A stretch of DNA of 44,496 bases from a virus, in IMG/VR virus record IMGVR_UViG_3300039308_000031, positions 1 to 44,496 of that record. One strand, written 5' to 3'. Shown one piece after another: positions 1-44,496 of the stretch. Position 1 is the first letter of the stretch, and the number at the start of each line of letters is the position of its first letter. The notes beneath the pieces were generated by a model. That model ran no database searches. It had not been told where the DNA came from and saw only the letters and a list, made by a program, of their open reading frames with translations. The position numbers were made by a program, and so were the translations under genes.

Positions 1-1314
1 ATGATTATTGTAATAATCGGCGCTCAATGGGGCGACGAAGGAAAGGGGAAAGTTGTTGATCTGCTCGCCGACCGCTTCGACATCGTCGCGCGTTACCAGG
101 GCGGGCATAACGCCGGGCATTCGGTTTACGTCGGCGATAAGGCTTTCGTTCTACGGCTTTTGCCGTCGGGCATCATCCACGAAGATTCGACCTGCGTGCT
201 CGGCAACGGCATGGTCATCGACCCGAAGGCTTTTTTCGAGGAAGTCGATCAGATGACGTCGCAGGGCATTTCGGTCACGCCCGAAAGGCTGAAGGTTTCG
301 TCGCGCGCGCACCTCATCATGCCGTATCACCGCGCGCTCGATCACACGTCTGAGGAACGGCTCGGCAACGAGAAGATCGGCACGACCCTGCGCGGCATCG
401 GTCCGGCTTACGAAGACAAAGCCGGCCGGCGCGGCATTCGCGTTTCGGACGCGCTCGTGCCGGAACTGTTAAAGCTCCGCATCGAACGCAATTTGGAAGA
501 AGCGAACCGCATCATCGTGCTGTACGGGCGCGAACCGCTGCGCTCGGACGAGATTTTCGAGGAAATTTCGGCGCTCGTCGAAAGATTGCGCCCGTTCGTC
601 GCCGAAACTTCGCATTTTCTGGCCGAAGCCAAAAAGCAAAAGAAAAAGATCCTGCTCGAAGGCGCGCAGGCGACGCTGCTAGACGTCGATCACGGAACGT
701 ACCCGTACGTCACCTCGTCGAACCCGACCGCGGGCGGCGCGGCGGTCGGCGCGGGCATTCCGCCGCATCACATTTCCGGCGTTTTGGGAATCGTTCGCAC
801 TTACGCGACGCGCGTCGGCGAAGGACCTTTTCCGACCGAAATGCTCGATCGGGAAGAGGAAATGGCGAATCTCATTCGGCAGCGCGGCAATGAATACGGC
901 TCGGTCACGAAACGCCCGCGCCGCTGCGGCTGGTTCGACGCGGTCGCGACGCGCTACGCCGCCGAGCTGAACGGCTTCGATTCGGTCGCGCTGACGAAGC
1001 TCGACGTGCTCGACGCGCTCGAAGAGATAAAGGTCTGCGTCGGGTATGAAATCGACGGCGTCAGAATCGACACGTTTCCGGCAGTCTCGCACGATCTGGC
1101 GAAAATCAAGCCGATTTACGAAACGCTCGAAGGCTGGCGAAGCGAAACGCTCGGCATCACGGAGATCGAGGATTTGCCCGCGAAAGCGCGCGCTTACGTC
1201 GATTTTTTGTCAAGCTCGATCGGCGTCGAGATCGGCTTGATTTCGACCGGACCGGAGCGCGACCAGACCATCATTTTGCGGGACTCGGTGATGGAGAGCT
1301 GGTTTAAAAGTTAA
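1..1314 (+). CDS. purA: Adenylosuccinate synthetase PurA
   Basis: Catalyses the GTP-dependent joining of IMP and aspartate, the first committed step from IMP to AMP, in the cytosol. The 437-residue protein is the usual length. The N-terminus has the family P-loop GAQWGDEGKGK (residues 7-17), followed by the GGHNAGHS segment with the catalytic His, then TTLRGIGPAYEDK and GRRGIRVSD around residues 128-149, and the nucleotide-binding C-terminal STGPERDQT. The gene opens the window at its ATG, so its promoter is not visible. It is host chromosomal and ends about 100 bases before a tRNA-Lys gene. Codon use is GC-rich. Nothing suggests damage. Confidence 0.98.
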   Translation: MIIVIIGAQWGDEGKGKVVDLLADRFDIVARYQGGHNAGHSVYVGDKAFVLRLLPSGIIHEDSTCVLGNGMVIDPKAFFEEVDQMTSQGISVTPERLKVSSRAHLIMPYHRALDHTSEERLGNEKIGTTLRGIGPAYEDKAGRRGIRVSDALVPELLKLRIERNLEEANRIIVLYGREPLRSDEIFEEISALVERLRPFVAETSHFLAEAKKQKKKILLEGAQATLLDVDHGTYPYVTSSNPTAGGAAVGAGIPPHHISGVLGIVRTYATRVGEGPFPTEMLDREEEMANLIRQRGNEYGSVTKRPRRCGWFDAVATRYAAELNGFDSVALTKLDVLDALEEIKVCVGYEIDGVRIDTFPAVSHDLAKIKPIYETLEGWRSETLGITEIEDLPAKARAYVDFLSSSIGVEIGLISTGPERDQTIILRDSVMESWFKS

Positions 1315-1343
1315 AAAATATTGAGAATTCTTTCACATCGCGC

Positions 1344-1372
1344 TTGCAAAGTTCGATTTCGATATGTAGAAT
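1344..1372 (+). promoter_or_regulatory. Sigma70-type promoter of tRNA-Lys
   Basis: TTGCAA (1344-1349) and TAGAAT (1367-1372) are separated by 17 bases, 46 bases upstream of the tRNA. Position and spacing make this the likely promoter of the tRNA gene rather than read-through from purA. Confidence 0.6.
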
Positions 1373-1384
1373 CATTGTTTCGGT

Positions 1385-1408
1385 TTGAGGTTCGAAACAA
1401 AACCTCAA
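1385..1408 (+). other. Hairpin between purA and tRNA-Lys
   Basis: TTGAGGTT and AACCTCAA pair perfectly around an 8-base loop. There is no clear U-run, so it may be a weak purA terminator or a 5' leader stem of the tRNA precursor. Confidence 0.45.
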
Positions 1409-1418
1409 TTTGAAAAGT

Positions 1419-1494
1419 GGTCCGATAGCTCAGTCGGTAGAGCAAATGGCTTTTAACCATTGGGTCGAAGGTTCGAGTCCTTCTCGGATCACCA
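1419..1494 (+). tRNA. tRNA-Lys (anticodon UUU), probable prophage integration site
   Basis: A full cloverleaf can be drawn. The acceptor stem is GGTCCGA with TCGGATC, the D arm GCTC/GAGC, the anticodon stem AATGG/CCATT with loop CTTTTAA (anticodon TTT at 1452-1454), and the T arm GAAGG-TTCGAGT-CCTTC. The discriminator is A and CCA is encoded. Phage genes begin directly downstream, and tyrosine integrases often use tRNA 3' ends, so this is inferred to be the attachment site; the partner repeat is not in the window. Confidence 0.97.
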
Positions 1495-1622: not shown

Positions 1623-2258
1623 ATGACTCTAGAGCTCGCATTAAAATCCCTCGACGCGATTTTGAAGATGATCCCCTTCTTGAAAACTCTCACCGGAGAG
1701 CGGCGGCGCGATTATTTTCGAGAAGTCATTAAGCCTTCCTATACGCAATTTGAAATCGTTCACAATTTTTACAACGATTTATTTCTTGAAACCGCTTCCG
1801 AAATGAAAAAGTTAAACGATAAATCTTTATCTGAAACGTCTTATGTACTGGGGAATGTAGAGTCGTTTAGAAAAGTTATGGATGATTACTTCTTAAAGAG
1901 GGTCAAAGATGAGCACGTCAGGGCGGCTTTACGACAAAACGTAAAAATCGCCCATGATTCCATTAAATGGAGTGAAGAAAAACTTTTTTATATATCATTG
2001 CTGAATTACTTCAATAATGATGATCAGCAAAACCACCTGCAACCTACTCGTCAAATTGTTCAATTTTCAGGTGAGGAAGGGAAATCGCCGTCTCGTGAAA
2101 TTTATGATCATTTGACCGAACTCTCGATGTATACTCCTGGCTATTGCGAAAAGGTTTTATACAAACTTGAAAGTGCCAGAAAAAACCAGAATATTCGGTA
2201 TTTGGACGTTAGCAAGCACTACAACAATATAGTTAATATAATCATTCAAAAGACCTAA
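1623..2258 (+). CDS. Hypothetical protein, AT-rich cargo gene
   Basis: I do not recognise this 211-residue protein. It is hydrophilic and mostly helical by composition, with no signal peptide, transmembrane segment or catalytic motif that I can see. It is the only plus-strand gene in the left arm, is clearly AT-richer than its neighbours, and ends tail-to-tail with the next gene (4-base overlap of the two 3' ends). A small perfect hairpin (GTTTTAT/ATAAAAC, 1589-1607) lies ahead of its ATG. Isolation, opposite strand and base composition fit a recently acquired accessory gene expressed from the lysogen; an exclusion or defence role would be a guess. Confidence 0.7.
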   Translation: MTLELALKSLDAILKMIPFLKTLTGERRRDYFREVIKPSYTQFEIVHNFYNDLFLETASEMKKLNDKSLSETSYVLGNVESFRKVMDDYFLKRVKDEHVRAALRQNVKIAHDSIKWSEEKLFYISLLNYFNNDDQQNHLQPTRQIVQFSGEEGKSPSREIYDHLTELSMYTPGYCEKVLYKLESARKNQNIRYLDVSKHYNNIVNIIIQKT

Positions 2259-2548
2259 CGTCTGATCGGTTTTCTCTTTTGCCTTCGCGGCTTCAACTTC
2301 GCCGTCGTTTCCAAAGTCAAATAATTCGCCTTGCCGCCGTCCGCTTGGAGCGGCAGCAGCTCGCCGCGCAGCGCCATATTCCGCGCCGTCGCCTGCGTGA
2401 TGCCGGCGATTTCGCACGCGTCCTTCTGCCGGATGACGATCGCCGACAATAAAATATCGAGTTTCGCTTCGAGCCGGTCGAGACGTTCTTTCGTCGATTC
2501 GTCGTCGGCGTCGTTTAATAATTGCTCTAAAAGTTCCTTTCGTGACAT
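2255..2548 (-). CDS. Small helix-turn-helix DNA-binding protein
   Basis: This 97-residue protein has an acidic helical N-terminus (residues 1-35) and then a segment beginning RQKDACEIAGIT around residue 40 that reads as a helix-turn-helix of the excisionase/MerR-like kind, with a very basic C-terminal tail. It is the last gene of the leftward early operon and so the gene nearest the left attachment site. That is a common place for an excisionase or directionality factor, but identity is inferred from position and motif only. It follows a small membrane-protein gene on the same strand by 9 bases. Confidence 0.7.
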   Translation of the reverse strand: MSRKELLEQLLNDADDESTKERLDRLEAKLDILLSAIVIRQKDACEIAGITQATARNMALRGELLPLQADGGKANYLTLETTAKLKPRRQKRKPIRR

Positions 2549-4192: not shown

Positions 4193-4465
4193 TTATCCGA
4201 TATTCGGTTCTCCGTGATAAATGATTTGCCAGCCGTTTCGAAGCGATTCGCTGACCCGAATCGTAAAATTGACGAGCGCTTCGCCGCGAGTATCGAAATT
4301 CTGATTGCAGACGGGCGGCAGCGCGCCGCGCGCGATCATGTGAATCGCCCTCTTCGCATTCACGCCCGAAAAGCCGAGCGTTCCGCTTTTGCCGTCGACA
4401 TACAGCGCGAGCGCGGCGACACTGCCGTTTTTCTCAAATAAAACGATTCTGCAATCTTCAGTCAT
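4193..4465 (-). CDS. Hypothetical early protein
   Basis: The frame is open further upstream, but the natural start is the ATG at 4465, which overlaps the stop of the RecT-like gene as ATGA. This gives 90 residues beginning MTEDCRIVLFEK. The sequence alternates hydrophobic and polar residues as in a small alpha/beta protein and has no membrane segment. The ATGA overlap implies translational coupling to the annealing protein, so it may assist recombination, but no family is recognised. Confidence 0.65.
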   Translation of the reverse strand: MTEDCRIVLFEKNGSVAALALYVDGKSGTLGFSGVNAKRAIHMIARGALPPVCNQNFDTRGEALVNFTIRVSESLRNGWQIIYHGEPNIG

Positions 4466-5433
4466 GCGGCTTGCCTTTGAAGTTGATGATGAAACGAAAG
4501 CGCGTGAATGTGCGCGCATCGCCAGTGCGGCGCGCCGTGATTGTACGAATCGACGTAATTCGCGCACGTGCACTTGATCACTTTATTGCCGAGCTCCGTG
4601 ACCTGTGTGATCTGATAAATCTCCGCGTCTTCGGTGTCGGTCACTTCGTAGCCGAGATTGTTCCGGGCGACGAATCCGCCTTCCGCCAGCAGACGACCTT
4701 TCGTTTCAGGAGTGACGGCTTTGTTCTGCTCGCGCTGCCGCTGTAATTCGTCGGTGCGCGATTGTTGCGGCTCTTCGAAGACCGGCTCGGCTTGAATCGC
4801 TTCCGGCTCGACCGGTTTCTGCGGCATCTTGACGACGATCGGCTTCGAGGTTTCTTCCGCCGGCATCATCGTCAATTCGTCGTTGTCGCCGATCGAAACT
4901 TCGGCGCCCATTTCCTCGAAGGTATAAATGCCGAGAATGACGTCCGGGAAGACGACGCGCGCGCAGGCGGCGACGGCTCGCCAGCGGAACATCACCGCCG
5001 GCTGTTTGCGGTAATTGTCTTTCGAAAGCAGGCCGAGCGCGTTCGCTTCCTTCGTGCCGAAAAACTCGGTGTGCTCGGTGCGCCCCTTGCGCTTCATCGT
5101 GCAGGAAACCTGCGCGACCGTACCGTCCGGCGAATTGTGCGTTTTGACGACGATGTTTTCGAGCTGCCCGCTGCGCTCGATCAGCGCGAGCATCAGCTGC
5201 GGGGAGACGGTCGGCTTGCCGGAGATGACGTTGATCGTGTTCAAAGCCTGCATCGTGCCGATGCCGAGCTCGCGCCCGGTCAGGATGATCGCGACGGCCT
5301 GTTCCGGCGTCTTGATCGCCTGCGGCAAAAAGTTGGATTTGATCAGCATCGACGCCTGTTCCTTCATGACGGCGAATTCCGACGCCGACGGCGCGAGCTG
5401 GTTATTTTCGCGGATTGCTAATTGTTGCGTCAT
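4462..5433 (-). CDS. RecT-like single-strand annealing protein with C-terminal SWIM zinc finger
   Basis: The 323-residue protein has the RecT-family core in residues 30-185: a helical N-terminus, the signature around AIILTGRELGIGTMQAL, the ISGKPTVSPQLMLALIERSG segment, and VMFRWRAVAACARVVFPD. Proteins of this family anneal complementary strands during phage recombination and replication. Residues 190-250 are a proline/glutamate-rich linker. The C-terminus carries KCTC followed 17 residues later by CAH (about residues 285-307), the CxC...CxH pattern of a SWIM zinc finger, which is not part of the RecT fold. No exonuclease partner is evident beside it. The start overlaps the upstream stop as TAATG. 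Confidence 0.85.
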   Translation of the reverse strand: MTQQLAIRENNQLAPSASEFAVMKEQASMLIKSNFLPQAIKTPEQAVAIILTGRELGIGTMQALNTINVISGKPTVSPQLMLALIERSGQLENIVVKTHNSPDGTVAQVSCTMKRKGRTEHTEFFGTKEANALGLLSKDNYRKQPAVMFRWRAVAACARVVFPDVILGIYTFEEMGAEVSIGDNDELTMMPAEETSKPIVVKMPQKPVEPEAIQAEPVFEEPQQSRTDELQRQREQNKAVTPETKGRLLAEGGFVARNNLGYEVTDTEDAEIYQITQVTELGNKVIKCTCANYVDSYNHGAPHWRCAHIHALSFHHQLQRQAA

Positions 5434-5800: not shown

Positions 5801-6467
5801 TTTGAAAAGGGGTTGTGCGCCGGCGAGACTTCTGACGGTAAGCCGGCGCACGCCTGTTTTTAGCAAGTATTTCTTTGCTCCAAATCTAGAAAACGGGATC
5901 TCCTTTTCAAATAAAGTAACCTCTTATGGAGGTCTGGACGATTGAATCGCCAGGCGAAACATCACGAATGGGGAATGAATACTGATTGAAGAAGACAGGA
6001 TTCGAATTCCGTTTGATACCCCGGAGGATCGTGATGCTCGGCTCGACGATCAAATTGTCAAAACGACTGATTGAAAACGGTCGGGAATTGAACCATTATT
6101 TTTTATTTCACTCTTCCGACTTTGCTTCTCGATCTTGATGGACGCGAATTCGAAGCCACTCCGCGCCCGACCGTTTTCAAACTGGCGGCGAAATCGAACG
6201 ATTAATCGTGCTTTTCGGCATTGCTCGGTCTCGCAGACATCGTCACATCTACGCCTACGTTTTCGGCTCCGCTCCGTCTTTTGAGATTGCGTGTCGTGCT
6301 CTGTCAGCCTAGTTCGATCTCGCCATAAATTTTCAAATTGGCGGCGGGTCCCGGAACCGCTCGATCCCGGCTTTCGCGCCCGCCTCTGATTTCCTATAGC
6401 TCCGGACGCACCCGCCAAATGATTTTCAATTCGCGGAGCGGCCAATCACCCCCAAAGACCGCTCCGC
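5801..6467 (-). other. Gene-poor block of five consecutive hairpins, candidate structured leader RNA
   Basis: No convincing gene lies between 5867 and 6507. It holds five successive stem elements: 5801-5911 (ends TTTGAAAAGG/CCTTTTCAAA with an inner 10-base stem 5815-5824/5842-5851); 6071-6180 (perfect 15-base ends TTGAAAACGGTCGGG and complement); 6187-6324 (13-base ends, one G-U); 6343-6416 (7-base ends GGCGGGT/ACCCGCC); and 6433-6467 (perfect 9-base stem). TTTGAAAA recurs at element edges. The block lies downstream of the leftward early promoter, so it would be part of that mRNA. Confidence 0.55.
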
Positions 6468-6507
6468 TTTTCTGCTTCCGAATCTTCCGATAGGGAAGCG
6501 GAACTTT

Positions 6508-6720: not shown

Positions 6721-6750
6721 ATCTTAGTACCAATTAGTACTATATGTCAA
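6721..6750 (-). promoter_or_regulatory. Leftward early promoter (pL-like) with RHH operator
   Basis: On the minus strand TTGACA (6745-6750) and TAAGAT (6721-6726) are 18 bases apart. Inside lies TAGTACTA-AT-TGGTACTA (6725-6742), two 8-base palindromes with centres 10 bp apart. The same operator layout occurs at 8589-8606 and 8531-8548, so the RHH repressor encoded at 8181-8555 is the likely ligand. Confidence 0.8.
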
Positions 6751-6764
6751 GCGAAATTTAAAAC

Positions 6765-6794
6765 AAAAAAAAGAGAAGCCGGGAAGCTTCTCTT
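6765..6794 (-). terminator. Terminator of the lysogeny operon
   Basis: On the minus strand AAGAGAAGC pairs perfectly with GCTTCTCTT around a 6-base loop, followed by a long U-run. It separates the secreted-protein gene from the leftward early promoter. Confidence 0.9.
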
Positions 6795-6815
6795 AAATCC
6801 AGTATTACGCTTAAT

Positions 6816-7370
6816 TTATAAAAGCGTCAGCTGATAAAAGTTTTTACACATTTCGAGCATCGCGGAGTTAAACTTACCTTCGTCTTTTGCGATCTGGAAT
6901 TCGATGGACTTAGCTTTTGACATCTTTTCAAGAGTGTCGAGCGATAATTTGTAAACGAGTTTTTCCTTCGTCATCGTTTCGCCGAACATCCCGCTGGCGA
7001 ATCCACTGTCTCTAACACCTTGGCCCAGATCGGCGCGCTCGTTATCAATTAGCAATATCAAATTCGAGTCCTTCAAATACCGCCAATCGCGCTGACCATA
7101 CGCGGTGTATACGAGTGCAACGGCTTCCGGTCGCTCTGACATTTCTTTTCCCGGAAATGAGAACGCGACATTTACCCCAAAATAAGGAATTAAGTATTTT
7201 TCGGTTTGAACGATGGTTATGTCTTTGAATTTATCGTAGGTAATTTGATACTTATCGCTTTTCTTAAAGGTTTTTGCTTGGTTTTGTAGAGCCTCAACGG
7301 TCCTTTTAGAAGTCTGTCCGAATCCGGATATGCAGAAAAGAATAAGTAAAAGGGGGATGATTGTTTTCAT
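6816..7370 (-). CDS. Secreted protein of unknown function, lysogeny operon
   Basis: The 184-residue protein begins with a classical signal peptide (MKT, a hydrophobic core to about residue 16, then SGFGQ before the likely cleavage site), with no lipobox Cys at the right place. The mature part is mixed alpha/beta with no motif I recognise. It is the last gene of the operon headed by the RHH repressor, so it should be made in the lysogen, and it ends just before a strong terminator. A lysogenic conversion product acting in the periplasm or outside is the simplest reading. Confidence 0.75.
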   Translation of the reverse strand: MKTIIPLLLILFCISGFGQTSKRTVEALQNQAKTFKKSDKYQITYDKFKDITIVQTEKYLIPYFGVNVAFSFPGKEMSERPEAVALVYTAYGQRDWRYLKDSNLILLIDNERADLGQGVRDSGFASGMFGETMTKEKLVYKLSLDTLEKMSKAKSIEFQIAKDEGKFNSAMLEMCKNFYQLTLL

Positions 7371-7373
7371 AGT

Positions 7374-7727
7374 TTAGATTCCTTCATTTAATCGTTGATA
7401 AAATTTCTTTTTGATCTGCCCGATCTCAAGTTGAAGCATTTTTCTTTGTTTTTCTATTCTTTCTATCTCAGAAAGCAGATTTTGATATTCAATATTAAAT
7501 CTCGAATTTTTAATTCTGGAACAAACATCATTGAATAAGTCTGTTTGAGTTGTGTCGTGCAGCAGTGAGGCGTCGCCTATTATGAAACTGTCTTTGTGCT
7601 TACAGTTTTGATGGATTTTACCCGCTGCGCAATTGCAATATATTCTGACCTTGCTGTCGAAGAATGTGAATGCAACGGTGTAATGCTCGCCGGAGGTGCT
7701 CTTAGCGTATATCGTTAAAGTTTCCAT
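7374..7727 (-). CDS. SWIM zinc-finger protein with C-terminal coiled coil
   Basis: The 117-residue protein has YCNC followed by CKH (about residues 30-44), the CxC-x7-CxH pattern of a SWIM zinc finger. Residues 80-112 form a Lys/Glu/Ile-rich heptad-like stretch likely to be a coiled coil. SWIM domains bind DNA or proteins. It lies between the ImmA-like peptidase gene (4-base gap) and the secreted protein gene (3-base gap), so it is made with the repressor in the lysogen and may take part in immunity or its sensing. The other SWIM protein of this phage is the RecT-like annealing protein. Confidence 0.75.
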   Translation of the reverse strand: METLTIYAKSTSGEHYTVAFTFFDSKVRIYCNCAAGKIHQNCKHKDSFIIGDASLLHDTTQTDLFNDVCSRIKNSRFNIEYQNLLSEIERIEKQRKMLQLEIGQIKKKFYQRLNEGI

Positions 7728-7731
7728 TTAT

Positions 7732-8175
7732 TTATCTCCCGTATAAATCATGCACTTCCTTGCGAAGGAAAATGAATCTTTTTGGATAGCCAAAATCGTA
7801 TTGCAGCTCACGAACCGTTTTTAATTCCACAATATAAGTCGGCATTAAAGACAATGCCGCGACAAAATGCGCCTCTTTCTCGATTTTGTGTTTTGTTTGA
7901 TTGTCGCAAAAGCTCGCCGCGGTGGTCGGATGTAGAATGAAGTGCGCGATCTCGTGCCAGAGAACCCAAGGACGGTAATTATTTTCTATGTATTTATGGA
8001 TTAGAATGCAGTGTCGATTTCGATAAAATCTATATTCTCCCAAGTCGTCGATCGCTTCGGTTTCATGAAGAATTATTTTATGACGATCGCAGAACTTGAT
8101 TGCATCGAGTTCGGTATGAATTCGTTTATTCCAGTCAGGTAAGAACTTTAGAATGGTTGGGATAAATAGGTTCAT
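7732..8175 (-). CDS. ImmA/IrrE-family metallopeptidase
   Basis: The 147-residue protein carries HEIAH at residues 74-78 and a downstream glutamate helix (EKEAHFVAALSLMP, Glu101), the zinc-binding pattern of ImmA/IrrE peptidases. In ICEBs1 and several phages these enzymes cleave the lysogeny repressor after DNA damage or signalling. Here the gene follows the RHH repressor by 5 bases, so the repressor is the natural substrate. Partner repressors in known systems are usually Xre-type HTH proteins, so the pairing with an RHH protein is unusual. There is no HTH domain attached. Confidence 0.88.
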   Translation of the reverse strand: MNLFIPTILKFLPDWNKRIHTELDAIKFCDRHKIILHETEAIDDLGEYRFYRNRHCILIHKYIENNYRPWVLWHEIAHFILHPTTAASFCDNQTKHKIEKEAHFVAALSLMPTYIVELKTVRELQYDFGYPKRFIFLRKEVHDLYGR

Positions 8176-8180
8176 TTCCT

Positions 8181-8555
8181 TTATTCTTTTTTCTCTTCGT
8201 TGTCGATGATTGCATCCAACTCGGCTTCTAGCTGAGAATCTTTCGATTTTTTCTTTCGAGGCTTTTTCCCGAAATTTAATTTTTCTTTAGCCGGAGATTT
8301 CGCTTGAATATTTAATGTATGTTCTCCCTTTTTCACGATAACATCGTGGAGCTGGTCGAGGGATGCTTTACGAAATTCGATCTCTAGAGCGCTCCAAACG
8401 CTCAAATAGCGACTTAAAACTTCTTCCGCTACTTCCTGACCGCTTGACCGACCCGTTTTCTCAGCAACTAACTTCAGCCGGTCGACTAATTCATCCGACA
8501 AATACATTTTAAATTGCGACTTAGCCATTTTGGTACTAATAAATACCACATCCAT
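8181..8555 (-). CDS. Ribbon-helix-helix repressor, candidate lysogeny repressor
   Basis: Residues 10-50 match an Arc/MetJ-type ribbon-helix-helix: a short beta strand (QFKMYLS), helix A (DELVDRLKLVAEKTG) and helix B (SGQEVAEEVLSRYL). The remaining 75 residues are an extra charged domain with Lys- and Glu-rich stretches, possibly the target of the peptidase next door. It lies between two outward promoters that both contain tandem TAGTACTA palindromes, like cI in lambda. The ATG at 8555 has GGAG 7 bases upstream; a second ATG at 8528, where the RHH fold begins, could be used by an mRNA starting near 8533. Confidence 0.88.
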   Translation of the reverse strand: MDVVFISTKMAKSQFKMYLSDELVDRLKLVAEKTGRSSGQEVAEEVLSRYLSVWSALEIEFRKASLDQLHDVIVKKGEHTLNIQAKSPAKEKLNFGKKPRKKKSKDSQLEAELDAIIDNEEKKE

Positions 8556-8568
8556 AAATTATCTCCAA
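8531..8568 (-). promoter_or_regulatory. Candidate repressor-maintenance promoter with third RHH operator
   Basis: On the minus strand TTGGAG (8563-8568) and TATTTA (8540-8545) are 17 bases apart. The third operator, TGGTACTA-AT-AAATACCA (8531-8548), covers the -10 region. Transcription would start near 8533, 5 bases before the ATG at 8528, so binding here would autoregulate the repressor. The -10 and -35 are weaker than those of the two lytic promoters. Confidence 0.5.
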
Positions 8569-8577
8569 CGAATTTAA

Positions 8578-8607
8578 TTGACAAAATTTAGTACTAGATA
8601 GTACTAT
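8578..8607 (+). promoter_or_regulatory. Rightward early promoter (pR-like) with RHH operator
   Basis: TTGACA (8578-8583) and TACTAT (8602-8607) are 18 bases apart. The operator TAGTACTA-GA-TAGTACTA (8589-8606) fills the spacer and overlaps the -10. The start codon of the next gene lies 8 bases after the -10, predicting a nearly leaderless mRNA. A leftward promoter for the repressor (TTGGGA, 16 bases, TAAATT) could also be read through the same site. Confidence 0.82.
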
Positions 8608-8615
8608 CCCAATGT

Positions 8616-8807
8616 ATGGGAAAACAACAATCAAAAATTGAGATGGTCAGCCATCATTTACGACTGCCCAAACCAATGAATGAATGGCTTTCAGAGTATT
8701 CAACTAAAAACAATTTTTCTTCTGAAATGGATGCTGTCCGTAGTATTTTGCGGGAGCATCAGCAAAAAGAGATTAAACAATCAAGCAGATTAAAGCTGGC
8801 GGCTTGA
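8616..8807 (+). CDS. Second ribbon-helix-helix protein in Cro position
   Basis: The 63-residue protein is almost entirely an RHH fold: a beta strand (HHLRLPK), helix A (PMNEWLSEYSTKNN) and helix B (FSSEMDAVRSILREH), with a short basic tail. It is the first gene of the rightward operon and diverges from the larger RHH repressor, as cro does from cI. It probably binds the same TAGTACTA operators to shut off the repressor gene, but this is inferred from fold and position. Out-of-frame ATG at 8612 is ignored because only the 8616 frame is open. Confidence 0.82.
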   Translation: MGKQQSKIEMVSHHLRLPKPMNEWLSEYSTKNNFSSEMDAVRSILREHQQKEIKQSSRLKLAA

Positions 8808-8886: not shown

Positions 8887-9363
8887 ATGCCGAGAGAAAC
8901 CTATCCGAGAAGCGACGAAACATTCAAAGTACTGTCCGGGAACGAGGCTGATTTTGCCCGCGAAGGCGACAAGGACGGTTCGCATTTCAACCGCATTAAA
9001 AACGGAGATTACCAGGACCCGTATTCGCTCTTCAGAGCGCTCTTTAGGATCGGCTGCCGCACGAACGCGCCGGTCGAGATATGGCTGAACGACCTGACGG
9101 CGATCTATGTGCGATCGCGCCGGCTTCACCTGCCGGCGTCGGATCTGTCGGGAAAGATCCTCGAAAAAATCCACTCCGACGCGGAAGCCTTGAGCGAGAT
9201 TTTGAAGGCGCTCTCGGACAAGGTTGTGACCAAAGAAGAATGCCATCTCGTGCTGGCGAAGCTCGCCGCAAACGAGGAAACCAACAACCAGATCAAGGCG
9301 GCGGTGCTGCACCGGCTCGGCGAGCTCGGCGACGCGGAAGAAAAGAAACTGAGGGCTGTATGA
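8887..9363 (+). CDS. Hypothetical early protein, possible regulator
   Basis: This 158-residue, mostly helical protein follows the Cro-position gene after 79 bases that hold no obvious gene. Its N-terminal half (SGNEADFAREGDKDGSHF...) reads like an adaptor or CII-type regulator domain and its C-terminal half is a set of amphipathic helices (residues 85-155), but I do not recognise the family with confidence. The start has no clear Shine-Dalgarno. The stop overlaps the next ATG as ATGA, so the two genes are coupled. By place it could act in the lysis-lysogeny decision or in replication control. Confidence 0.75.
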   Translation: MPRETYPRSDETFKVLSGNEADFAREGDKDGSHFNRIKNGDYQDPYSLFRALFRIGCRTNAPVEIWLNDLTAIYVRSRRLHLPASDLSGKILEKIHSDAEALSEILKALSDKVVTKEECHLVLAKLAANEETNNQIKAAVLHRLGELGDAEEKKLRAV

Positions 9364-14134: not shown

Positions 14135-14689
14135 ATGGTTTCGATCACATTTGATAATGATTCGGATGTTATTCAATATAACACCGCACAAATCTCTGAC
14201 TCCGATCAAATAGTTTCGTTGAATTTGTTATGGGTCAACGCTTTCGAAAAAGGAAACTTTCAAAAGGGATTCGTTCGGTACGCTTTTAGCCGCGATGAGA
14301 TTATTTCACTTATTAAAGCAAATGAAGTGGTGGTAGCCAGAAACGATTTCACAGTCGTCGGCTACTATTTAATAAACAGCCTTTTTGAAAAGGAAATTGG
14401 CAGGATTAGACGTAAAACAGCCGAGTTGCAAATCGCAGCAGGCACTCTTCCCGGGGCTCGCTACGTTTATCAGTGCCAAGCTGCAGTACACCCGGATTAT
14501 CAGAATAAAGGCATTGGCAAAATGCTGCTTTCAACGCTAAAACGCCAGGTACAGTCTCAATTCGACATTATTATTAGCGGGATCAATAAAGATAACGAAT
14601 ACGCTAAATCGGCTCATCTAAAATCAGGTTGGGTAATTGTGTGCGACAATGGAGGCGAATATCTGGTTTATACCAAAACCGGCCAGTAG
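14135..14689 (+). CDS. GNAT-family N-acetyltransferase
   Basis: The 184-residue protein has the GNAT motif A, VHPDYQNKGIGKMLLSTL (about residues 129-146), where the backbone binds the acetyl-CoA pyrophosphate, followed by the motif B-like segment with SAHLKSGW. The substrate is unknown. It is AT-richer than its neighbours, has its own promoter just upstream and a good ribosome site (AAGAGG 9 bases before the ATG). These features mark a cargo gene expressed in the lysogen rather than a core phage gene. The N-terminal 60 residues are divergent. Confidence 0.85.
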   Translation: MVSITFDNDSDVIQYNTAQISDSDQIVSLNLLWVNAFEKGNFQKGFVRYAFSRDEIISLIKANEVVVARNDFTVVGYYLINSLFEKEIGRIRRKTAELQIAAGTLPGARYVYQCQAAVHPDYQNKGIGKMLLSTLKRQVQSQFDIIISGINKDNEYAKSAHLKSGWVIVCDNGGEYLVYTKTGQ

Positions 14690-15000
14690 CGTTGCGCTCA
14701 GCTATTAAAAATCGAATTGTTAAAACAAAAAATAAAAGCGCCGGAGCGACCGTCATCGCCGTCGATTTATTTGATGTTTCCTGCAGAAATTTGAAGCCGT
14801 CCTGCGAGCCGTTATGTAATGAACGGAACCGAATCGGCCCGCGTCCGCGAAATAAAATCGTTCTCGATTCAGAGCGGCGACCGACGGTCTAGATTTTTAT
14901 GCGAAAGGGGCGTATGGTTAGAATTTGTTAAATCAAAATTCAAACCGGGGTCGTGGTTCGTTTTCGTCGGCTGGTTTTAATTTCGAAAGGACGGACGCTC
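14690..15000 (+). other. Intergenic stretch before the histidine kinase
   Basis: No convincing gene is seen in these 311 bases. A weak promoter can be drawn at 14896-14924 (TTTATG, 17 bases, TAGAAT), and AGGA lies 9 bases before the kinase start at 15001. The rest shows no strong repeat. Confidence 0.4.
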
Positions 15001-16221
15001 ATGAACGACGAACTTTATACTCGTGTGGAAAAGCAAACCGGCTGGAGCAGGGAGCTGCTTTACCAATTGGTCGACAACGTCAGAGACTACGCCATCTTCG
15101 TGTGCGACACCGAGGGGCGCATCGTTTCGTGGAACGTCGGCGCCGAGAAGATCTTCGGTTACAAACCGGAAGAGGCGATCGGACAGAAGACCGCCATCAC
15201 CTTCACCGAAGAGGACCGCGCGAACGGCGTTCCGGAGCATGAAATGCGCACCGCGCGCGAAGAAGGCTGCGCCGAGGACGAGCGTTGGCACGTTCGCAAA
15301 GACGGCGGCTACTTTTTCGCTTCCGGCGTGAAGACTCCGCTTTACGACGACGAGGGGACCTTGACCGGCTACGCGAAGATCGCGCGCGACGTCACCGAGC
15401 GCATCCGGTTTCAGGATCAGCTGCGCGAGGCGAAAGACATTCTGGAAATGAAGGTCGGCGAGCGCACGCGCGAATTGAGCGAATCGAACGAATCGCTGCG
15501 CCTCGAGGTTGTCACGCGCAAGGAGTCGGAGCAGGTGCGGGTCGCGCTGTTGCGGAAAATCGTTCAAACGCAGGAGGATGAAAGGAAACGCATCGCGCGC
15601 GAGATCCACGACCACATCGGTCAGCAAATAACCGCCGTGCAATTGCATCTGCACGCGATTTCGGAAGAAAACGGCGAAGACGCGCGGTTGAGCGAAAAAC
15701 TCGGCAAACTGCAGGCGATCGTCGATCGGATGGACGCCGAAGCCGATTTTCTGGCGTGGGAGCTGCGCCCGTCCGTGCTGGACAATCTGGGGCTCGCGGC
15801 GGCGCTGAGGGATTACATAAATGAATGGTCGAAGCATTTCAAGACGCCGGCTCATTTTCAGCAGATCGGTTTCGACGGTCAAAGGCTGCTGCCGGAAACC
15901 GAGATCAATCTTTACCGGATCGGGCAGGAAGCCCTGAACAATATCGCCAAGCACGCCGGCGCGGGCAACGTTTACGTGCTGCTGGAGCGGCGCGGCGATT
16001 CGATCGTGCTCATCGTCGAGGACGACGGCGTCGGATTCGACGCCAGTAAAGAATCCGTTCTGACGGGCGACGATCGCGGCATGGGGCTGCTCGGCATGAA
16101 GGAGCGCGCCGAGCTCGTCGGCGGTTCGCTCGAGATCGAATCGTCGCGGGGCAACGGCACGACCGTTTACGCGCGCGTGCCGGCGCGGTTCGAGGAAGAC
16201 ATCCATTCCACAGCCAGCTGA
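15001..16221 (+). CDS. PAS-domain sensor histidine kinase of the NarL-partner (HisKA_3) type
   Basis: The 406-residue protein has no membrane segment. Residues 18-135 form a PAS domain with a PAC end (YAKIARDVTER), residues 138-190 a coiled-coil linker, and residues 195-260 a HisKA_3 dimerisation helix with phosphoacceptor H203 in AREIHDHIGQ. The ATPase domain has the N box (QEALNNIAKHA), G1 (DDGVGF) and G2 (GMGLLGM). It should phosphorylate a LuxR/NarL-type response regulator, yet none is encoded in the window, so a host regulator is the likely target. GC-rich host-like codon use suggests capture from a bacterial genome. Its end overlaps a minus-strand gene. Confidence 0.92.
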   Translation: MNDELYTRVEKQTGWSRELLYQLVDNVRDYAIFVCDTEGRIVSWNVGAEKIFGYKPEEAIGQKTAITFTEEDRANGVPEHEMRTAREEGCAEDERWHVRKDGGYFFASGVKTPLYDDEGTLTGYAKIARDVTERIRFQDQLREAKDILEMKVGERTRELSESNESLRLEVVTRKESEQVRVALLRKIVQTQEDERKRIAREIHDHIGQQITAVQLHLHAISEENGEDARLSEKLGKLQAIVDRMDAEADFLAWELRPSVLDNLGLAAALRDYINEWSKHFKTPAHFQQIGFDGQRLLPETEINLYRIGQEALNNIAKHAGAGNVYVLLERRGDSIVLIVEDDGVGFDASKESVLTGDDRGMGLLGMKERAELVGGSLEIESSRGNGTTVYARVPARFEEDIHSTAS

Positions 16222-43034: not shown

Positions 43035-43246
43035 GATTGTTCCTGATCTAATTCTTTTATTAATTCTTCGACCTTTCGAACCGCTTCCTCTTCGGTCAGA
43101 TAATCCTCGACCGTGTATTCTCGAATAAAACTGTCGCCGCCCGAGGTTTCGTACTCGATCTTAACGATCTTAAAGCACTTCGAATCTTCCGCGGTGCGCG
43201 CGAATTCGAACTGAGGCATGATCTGGTAAGTGAAATCTATGTGCAT
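43031..43246 (-). CDS. Hypothetical protein coupled to integrase
   Basis: A 71-residue acidic protein with a beta part (HIDFTYQIMPQFEFA) and a C-terminal helix (EEAVRKVEELIKELD). Its ATG overlaps the integrase stop (TAATG type), so it is co-translated with the integrase. It could be a recombination accessory factor, but it has no recognisable DNA-binding motif. Confidence 0.7.
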   Translation of the reverse strand: MHIDFTYQIMPQFEFARTAEDSKCFKIVKIEYETSGGDSFIREYTVEDYLTEEEAVRKVEELIKELDQEQS

Positions 43247-44496
43247 TAATTATTTTCCGATTTCGTTTCCGTGACGCCGGCGTTTTCCGTGTCGAGCATC
43301 TTTTTCACGATCGCCGCCGCAGCCAGGTCGAATTCCGTATAGTTGAACGACATCTGCATCGTCTGGTGTCCGAGCATCCTCTGCACCATCGTGTCGGGCA
43401 TTCCGAGACGGGCGAGCCGGCTCCTGAAGTCGCGCCTGAGATCGCGCAGCCGAACGTGCTTGAGTCCGGCCTTTTCCCGGACGACTTCCCAGGCTGATTG
43501 AAAGCTCGTCTGCGGGAAAACGAGATTGTCGAGCTCCGCTTGGTGTTCGGGCGTCGTGTTTTTCGCGCGCCGGTCGTATTTAAGATAATTCCAGAGATCG
43601 AGAAACGCGCGCTTCATGCGCTCGGTGACGACGCAAAGTCGTTCTTCGCGCACTTTGCCTTTATAGGAAACGAGCCGGGTGACGTCCTTGATATTGCCGT
43701 CTTCGTCGAAAAGATCGCGCCACCGGAGCGGCTCGAAATTCGTCTCCGCGCCGCTGCCGTAATCCGATTCGTAATCGTTGACCGGGTAAAGTTCCGACGG
43801 GCGCGCGCCCGTGTCGCGCAGCGCGATGATTAAAGGGTAGAGGCGCGGCGCGTAATTCATTTTCTTGGCTTCTTCGAGGATGCGTTTTTCTTCTTCGTCC
43901 GTGATCGTCACGGTCCGCCGCTCTTCCAGCGATTTGTCGATCAGCTCGGAAAAGTCGACCATCTCCTTGAGCCACTTTTTTTTCACGGCTTTGCGCATCA
44001 TCGCGCGGATCGTCTCGAATTCGCGGTTGACGGTAGCGGGCTTTACGCCGCCCTTGATCCTTTTCAGCTTGTACCGGCGCAGGAGAAATTCGTCGACCTC
44101 TTCGATCAGGTATTTGCCGAATACTTCGCACAGGCGATCGAGTTTCTGGTGCTCGTTCTCCCACGATCGCATGCCGGCGATCTTCTTGCCGTTCGTGTAA
44201 ACAGGCGGCACAGCGAATTCTTCCTTGTACCAGTCGGAGAGTTTTTGAAACGTCATCGCACGCCCGTCGAGAAACGCCTGCCCTCGATCGTTGTGCTCGT
44301 CGAGCAGCTCGCGCGCCGTTTGGTCGGCTTCCGTCAGGTTTTTGACGCGGCGCTTAATCGTTTTGTATTTTATTTTCCCGTTTTTGTCGCGCGCGTCGGT
44401 CGGCACCTGGACGCGCGCGTATGAATACCCGGTCGCCGGATCGACCCAGAAATATTTACCGTAATCGCGGATCTCTCGTTTTTTCCTGCGCGGCAT
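43246..44496 (-). CDS. int: Tyrosine recombinase, phage integrase
   Basis: The 416-residue protein has an arm-binding N-terminus (residues 1-60), a core-binding domain (about 80-185) and the catalytic domain. Catalytic residues: Arg232 (DTGARPSEL), Lys279 or Lys281, Arg354, His377 (LGHQTM) and the nucleophile Tyr386 (NYTEF). The usual HxLRH box reads RDLRR (351-355), so the first His is Arg. It should integrate and excise the phage at tRNA-Lys. It lies at the right end, reading inward; in the circular phage it would lie across attP from the leftward early operon, which could read into it. Its promoter is outside the window. Confidence 0.93.
   Translation of the reverse strand: MPRRKKREIRDYGKYFWVDPATGYSYARVQVPTDARDKNGKIKYKTIKRRVKNLTEADQTARELLDEHNDRGQAFLDGRAMTFQKLSDWYKEEFAVPPVYTNGKKIAGMRSWENEHQKLDRLCEVFGKYLIEEVDEFLLRRYKLKRIKGGVKPATVNREFETIRAMMRKAVKKKWLKEMVDFSELIDKSLEERRTVTITDEEEKRILEEAKKMNYAPRLYPLIIALRDTGARPSELYPVNDYESDYGSGAETNFEPLRWRDLFDEDGNIKDVTRLVSYKGKVREERLCVVTERMKRAFLDLWNYLKYDRRAKNTTPEHQAELDNLVFPQTSFQSAWEVVREKAGLKHVRLRDLRRDFRSRLARLGMPDTMVQRMLGHQTMQMSFNYTEFDLAAAAIVKKMLDTENAGVTETKSENN

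Follow-up and report, generated by a model that had tools for sequence, protein, structure and literature searches.

A candidate ribbon-helix-helix repressor beside an M78 peptidase in the probable lysogeny region of an acidobacterial prophage

The 44,496-base IMG/VR virus record IMGVR_UViG_3300039308_000031 (the window, meaning the whole stretch of DNA analysed here) appears to hold a dormant virus of a soil-type acidobacterium, kept in check by a repressor of the ribbon-helix-helix (RHH) kind. From its sequence we read an operon between a leftward and a rightward promoter as the core of the lysogeny switch of this prophage, arranged like ImmR/ImmA systems but with an RHH protein (RHH1) as the repressor, and we put the probability of this reading at roughly two in three. 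Within it, we infer DNA binding and repression by RHH1, its cleavage by an ImmA/IrrE-type (M78) metallopeptidase and the role of a second small protein, RHH2. An earlier note on this DNA had described a lambda-like immunity region built from two RHH regulators in place of helix-turn-helix (HTH) repressors; it had overlooked the M78 peptidase gene (7732-8175), which lies directly downstream of RHH1.

The RHH1-M78 operon and its operators

The proposed switch comprises the following features:

6721..6750, minus strand: leftward promoter, pL-like, upstream of the recT side (TTGACA-18-TAAGAT, 10/12 consensus matches)
6725..6742, unstranded: left operator, TAGTACCA-AT-TAGTACTA, 1 mismatch, in the pL spacer and running into the -10
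7732..8175, minus strand: M78 (ImmA/IrrE-type) metallopeptidase with the motif HEIAH (Pfam PF06114, 31.8 bits, cut-off 22; PHROG metallo-protease, 1.3e-11)
8181..8555, minus strand: RHH1, putative RHH lysogeny repressor, 124 aa from 8555 or 115 aa from an ATG at 8528 (open reading frame (ORF), PHROG, AlphaFold2)
8531..8548, unstranded: degenerate third site, TGGTACTA-AT-AAATACCA, 4 mismatches, at the 5' end of RHH1
8578..8607, plus strand: rightward promoter, pR-like (TTGACA-18-TACTAT, 10/12 consensus matches)
8589..8606, unstranded: right operator, TAGTACTA-GA-TAGTACTA, 0 mismatches, in the pR spacer and running into the -10
8616..8807, plus strand: RHH2, 63 aa, in the cro position, probably an RHH protein (ORF, PHROG, AlphaFold2, Foldseek)

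Both small genes of the earlier note were confirmed as ORFs. RHH1 starts either at 8555, with a good GGAG upstream (by eye), or at 8528, where its homologues (L201-L203) begin. Its best family match is to the PHROG 'Arc-like repressor' (5.8e-4), accompanied by Pfam matches below threshold to FitA-like RHH, RHH_5, Arc and RHH_1, and its nearest solved relative is, weakly, Arc. The AlphaFold2 model (numbered from 8528) contains helices at 12-25 and 30-76, disorder at 77-95 and a further helix at 96-113; its order of elements (extended segment, helix, short turn, helix) fits a strand-helix-helix protein. RHH2 has the same strand-helix-helix layout in its model, with helices at 19-32 and 35-62. 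As the first gene of the pR transcript it holds the position of lambda cro, its weak family evidence is for RHH and not HTH, and from this position it is probably a Cro-like regulator. The M78 gene lies 5 bp downstream of RHH1, and the HExxH motif of its product is intact and invariant in the alignment of homologues; the peptidase is predicted to be an anti-repressor that cleaves RHH1.

At up to three mismatches, the 18-bp form TAGTACTA-N2-TAGTACTA occurs at only two sites in the 44-kb window (0.00 expected), the left and right operators. These tandem short palindromes of 8-2-8 form, the best in the window, have the shape expected for two dimers of the RHH superfamily and, as in a lambda-type switch, the repressor gene is flanked by two outward early promoters that carry the same operators. 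Both promoters of the earlier note were recovered. Promoter-like sequences number 7 in the region compared with 5.9 in shuffles, that is, they are not enriched, and so the promoter calls rest on their coincidence with the operators. The earlier note had counted three operators of one form, each overlapping a promoter spacer or -10; this holds for the left and right sites, whereas the third overlaps no promoter found by the scan and departs from the form. Only the left and right operators score better in the window, and chance is an unlikely source of this site (at 4 mismatches, 0.03 would be expected in the 2-kb region and 0.13 in the whole window). It falls inside the 5' end of RHH1 if translation starts at 8555, or just before the start if this is 8528, and is a possible autoregulatory site. 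An IMG/VR scan with the operator pattern returned 60 loci with an exact site; none of the 60 has a gene related to those for the window's immunity proteins, and we treat them as chance matches.

In the switch that we propose, RHH1 would bind as dimers to the two palindromes of each operator (8 bp each, centres 10 bp apart) and so keep the early transcripts of pL and pR off, and the third site may let it adjust expression of its own gene. In response to a stress signal, the M78 peptidase from the same operon would cut RHH1, probably in the disordered linker before the C-terminal helix. With RHH1 cut, pL and pR would open, and RHH2, the first pR product, would act in a Cro-like manner on the same or overlapping sites.

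Neighbours of M78 peptidases in other genomes

M78 homologues were collected from 162 genomes of the host class, from IMG/VR and from 396 genomes of the phylum, and the gene upstream of each was inspected. In 40 of 70 distinct M78 loci the next gene upstream is an HTH gene, and in 2 it is an RHH gene: the window prophage and L203, from acidobacterial genome G157. The usual neighbour of this family is an HTH repressor, and RHH1 thus occupies a repressor's place. To this extent the earlier placement of the RHH pair in the main cI and cro positions gains support for RHH1; for RHH2 as Cro it is a matter of position. In the M78 tree, the window peptidase pairs with that of another prophage, L180 (support 99/97), while the two RHH-linked peptidases come together in 0 of 200 bootstrap trees, L203 lying on a long branch. 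Since the window peptidase pairs with L180 and never with L203, the pairing with RHH would have arisen at least twice.

L180 (IMGVR_UViG_3300031454_000257) carries the closest relative of the window peptidase (53% identity). Its M78 gene directly follows that of an XRE-type repressor (HTH_3, 4e-8), from which a gene for a 60-aa RHH protein (RHH_5, 5e-7, above cut-off) diverges in the cro position; this protein is the counterpart of RHH2 by position. An RHH protein at the cro position is therefore not in itself novel; where L180 combines it with an HTH repressor and the protease, the window has an RHH protein as repressor as well. L180 shows dispersed AACACTA repeats instead of the 8-2-8 operator form. 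Beyond the M78 peptidase and a short part of one further protein, the two phages are essentially unrelated; the module is mosaic. Directly after the L180 M78 gene (L180:4448-5545, plus strand) lies a gene for a 365-aa protein; by eye it resembles restriction-type proteins, and it might be defence cargo carried by the lysogeny operon.

A search with RHH1 as query led to L203 (E 0.0019, 27% identity). The RHH gene there overlaps one for an M78 peptidase (24.3 bits, cut-off 22), and the pair was accepted because the weak RHH1 match falls beside the same rare peptidase; the similarity by itself would not convince. The two loci differ in sequence (26-27% identity between the RHH proteins, 21% between the peptidases, which stand on different tree branches) and agree in layout: an RHH gene beside an M78 gene, a divergent small gene and an inverted repeat with a 2-bp gap. 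In L203 this repeat, in the divergent promoter region, is ATTTATGTGTA-AA-TATACATAAAT, an 11-bp inverted repeat; the 8-2-8 score is matched by 0.7% of shuffles for the 2-bp gap and by 4% across all gaps. The L203 prophage carries terminase, O-like replication and HNH genes and ends near a tRNA-Met.

Other searches were negative within their scope. The RHH matches L201, L202, L206, L208 and L241-L243 have no M78 gene within about 1.5 kb on either side; the RHH profile, run on about 780 genomes of two other phyla, gave nothing in one phylum and three weak RelB-like or chance matches in the other. No match was found for the window M78 peptidase among plasmids, for the L203 proteins among phages or in a terminase search of the L180, L203, L201 and L202 records. 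One IMG/VR M78 candidate, L003, was rejected as a short spurious match.

Two M78 loci have unusual surroundings. At L155:1480-1914 (minus strand), two tandem paralogous coiled-coil genes (MKSVEENI...) part the M78 gene from a CI-like HTH gene. In L152, the M78 gene overlaps an upstream gene at 5-1477 (reverse strand) for a 490-aa TPR-like protein, neither HTH nor RHH, whose C-terminal part resembles an S24/LexA-type peptidase by eye.

Weighing the proposed RHH repressor against other readings

Several observations count against RHH1 as the lysogeny repressor of an RHH switch. RHH1 reaches no curated Pfam or NCBIfam cut-off, and its best Foldseek matches, which include Arc, CdbA, VapB and an RHH-like TCP domain, are not significant. 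For RHH2 the earlier call as an RHH protein fares less well than for RHH1: its PHROG Arc-like match is 0.086, and the 12 chains matched by Foldseek, all of RHH or RHH-like type, fall short of significance. No relatives of RHH1 were found in IMG/VR or INPHARED, nor by a profile search of IMG/VR, so that the module is rare. The resemblance of L203 to RHH1 is weak (one of 162 genomes) and the pair rests partly on the M78 neighbour. A strict rule left 28 of the 70 M78 loci unclassified (no gene, another gene, or HTH one gene further), several of them with an HTH gene one gene further upstream. When the C-terminal tail of RHH1 was compared with the tails of HTH partners, 213 of 1,000 shuffles scored as high, which is chance level. 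Finally, the promoter scan of the region found no clear promoter for RHH1.

One alternative, which we consider unlikely, is that the role of RHH1 is limited to a secondary or accessory circuit, like that of Arc and Mnt in P22 immI, while another repressor, outside the window or of a type not recognised, maintains lysogeny. To our knowledge the only well-studied phage RHH switch is of this secondary kind; many ORFs of the window have no family; and because the window stops at the start of the integrase gene, the prophage may extend a few hundred bases further. However, a local HTH profile found no CI-like HTH repressor in any ORF of the window. A 97-aa protein at 2255-2548 (minus strand) has a weak HTH_17 match (0.011), of the kind seen in excisionases. 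The RHH operators lie on the leftward promoter, towards recT, and on the rightward promoter of the early genes, and the place beside the M78 gene is that of the main repressor in L180 and most homologues. P22 immI is a secondary region that controls an antirepressor; among the neighbouring genes tested here, none showed an antirepressor-type domain, and no separate HTH region was found.

It also seems improbable that RHH1 and M78 form a toxin-antitoxin-like or stress module, autoregulated through the operators and touching lysogeny only indirectly. RHH proteins are commonly antitoxins, and RHH1 has an NCBIfam RelB-like match of 0.0031, below the cut-off. COG2856-HTH pairs were moreover once among candidate toxin-antitoxin systems (PMC2701414). 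Yet the two best operators are on the outward promoters, outside the operon's own start, and phage-borne repressor-protease duos (MpaR, ImmA) work as anti-repressors (PMC6872733). We give very little weight to a third possibility, in which RHH2, as a Cro or CopG-like protein, is the sole ligand of the operators and RHH1 is a protease substrate or partner that does not bind DNA. RHH2 comes first after pR, autoregulation is usual, and in L180 a cro-position RHH protein coexists with an HTH repressor; but L180 has that RHH protein without the 8-2-8 form, both RHH-M78 loci have paired sites with a 2-bp gap, and the RHH evidence is better for RHH1 than for RHH2.

If RHH1 is indeed the repressor, the main repressor of lysogeny in this prophage would belong to the RHH class, and prophage repressor searches that rely on HTH domains would miss such switches. 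More broadly, we lean slightly towards the view that ImmA-type proteases are not tied to HTH proteins: at least two acidobacterial prophages would have changed their main repressor to RHH while keeping the protease trigger, the window probably having an RHH Cro as well. The protease trigger (ImmA/IrrE) and the DNA-reading part would then be separable modules exchanged in evolution, which raises the question of how an M78 protease recognises a repressor whose fold is replaceable.

Prophage context and comparison with known systems

Host purA occupies positions 1-1314 at the start of the window, and its best PurA matches are two metagenome-assembled genomes (85-86% identity), one of them from Acidobacteria. 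The adjoining tRNA-Lys is the probable attachment site of the prophage; L070 has the same purA-tRNA-Lys order with the prophage absent. The remainder of the window is a tailed-phage prophage, with genes for RecT, HNH, endolysin, terminase, portal, an HK97 protease/capsid fusion, tape measure protein and a tyrosine recombinase. Features outside the core switch are:

1419..1494, plus strand: tRNA-Lys, host gene adjoining purA, putative attachment site
4462..5433, minus strand: RecT-type annealing protein, on the leftward transcript side (PHROG 2.7e-22)
6771..6794, minus strand: intrinsic terminator closing the RHH1-M78 operon (10-pair stem, then a T run)
6816..7370, minus strand: last operon gene, 184-aa protein that by eye looks secreted, being hydrophobic near its N terminus (ORF; PHROG of unknown function, 5.3e-6)
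7374..7727, minus strand: third operon gene, 117-aa protein with a CxC...CxH cluster, SWIM-like by eye (ORF; no significant family)
8887..9363, plus strand: second gene of the rightward transcript, 158-aa protein, cII by position only (ORF; no family match that counts)
43246..44496, minus strand: tyrosine recombinase (integrase) at the far prophage end (TIGR02225 XerD-like, 2.5e-9)

The RecT-type protein (4462-5433, minus strand) has a C-terminal CxC...CxH cluster (VIKCTCANYVDSYNHGAPHWRCAHIHAL) resembling a SWIM-type zinc finger fused to the recombinase, and similar clusters occur in 7374-7727 (minus strand) and in L180:2623-3138 (minus strand). A long interval between the leftward promoter and the recT side (6050-6500) holds no convincing gene; words resembling TTTTCAAAnTGGCGGCG recur in it, and it matches no Rfam family. 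Apart from the tRNA, no Rfam element was found in the window. Unusual cargo within the prophage includes a GNAT acetyltransferase (14135-14689, plus strand) and a PAS-domain sensor histidine kinase (14953-16221, plus strand).

An open-access literature search returned no published RHH-ImmA pair; it returned many HTH-ImmA duos and RHH phage regulators, such as Arc and Mnt of P22 and YosL of SP-beta (PMC10516654). Like the window, P22 has phage RHH repressors in Arc and Mnt, but immI is without an M78 peptidase, and the RHH pair of the window seems to stand in the main position. The lambda-like layout of the earlier note holds for the operon, the operators and the flanking genes: in both phages outward promoters with matching operators flank the repressor operon, the first rightward gene is that of a small regulator and a recombination gene lies leftward. 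The window differs from lambda in having no HTH CI or Cro, no LexA-type self-cleavage and a protease predicted to act in trans, and in having one paired site per promoter where lambda has three. The closest known kind, and a better comparison than lambda, is the ImmR/ImmA switch. Duos with a protease gene directly downstream of the main repressor have been reported to be common in temperate phages (PMC6872733), and in ImmR/ImmA of ICEBs1, DdrO/IrrE and the MpaR/CI-like duos the M78 gene stands there, as in the window. The ICEBs1 protease ImmA cleaves its HTH repressor, ImmR, at a point between the two C-terminal helices (PMC8960796). ImmR/ImmA and the window also share a divergent early promoter and a repressor made of a DNA-binding part, a linker and a C-terminal helix; they differ in that ImmR is an HTH (XRE) protein where the window has a putative RHH protein, and, since the C-terminal tails share no detectable sequence similarity, the parallel is one of layout only.

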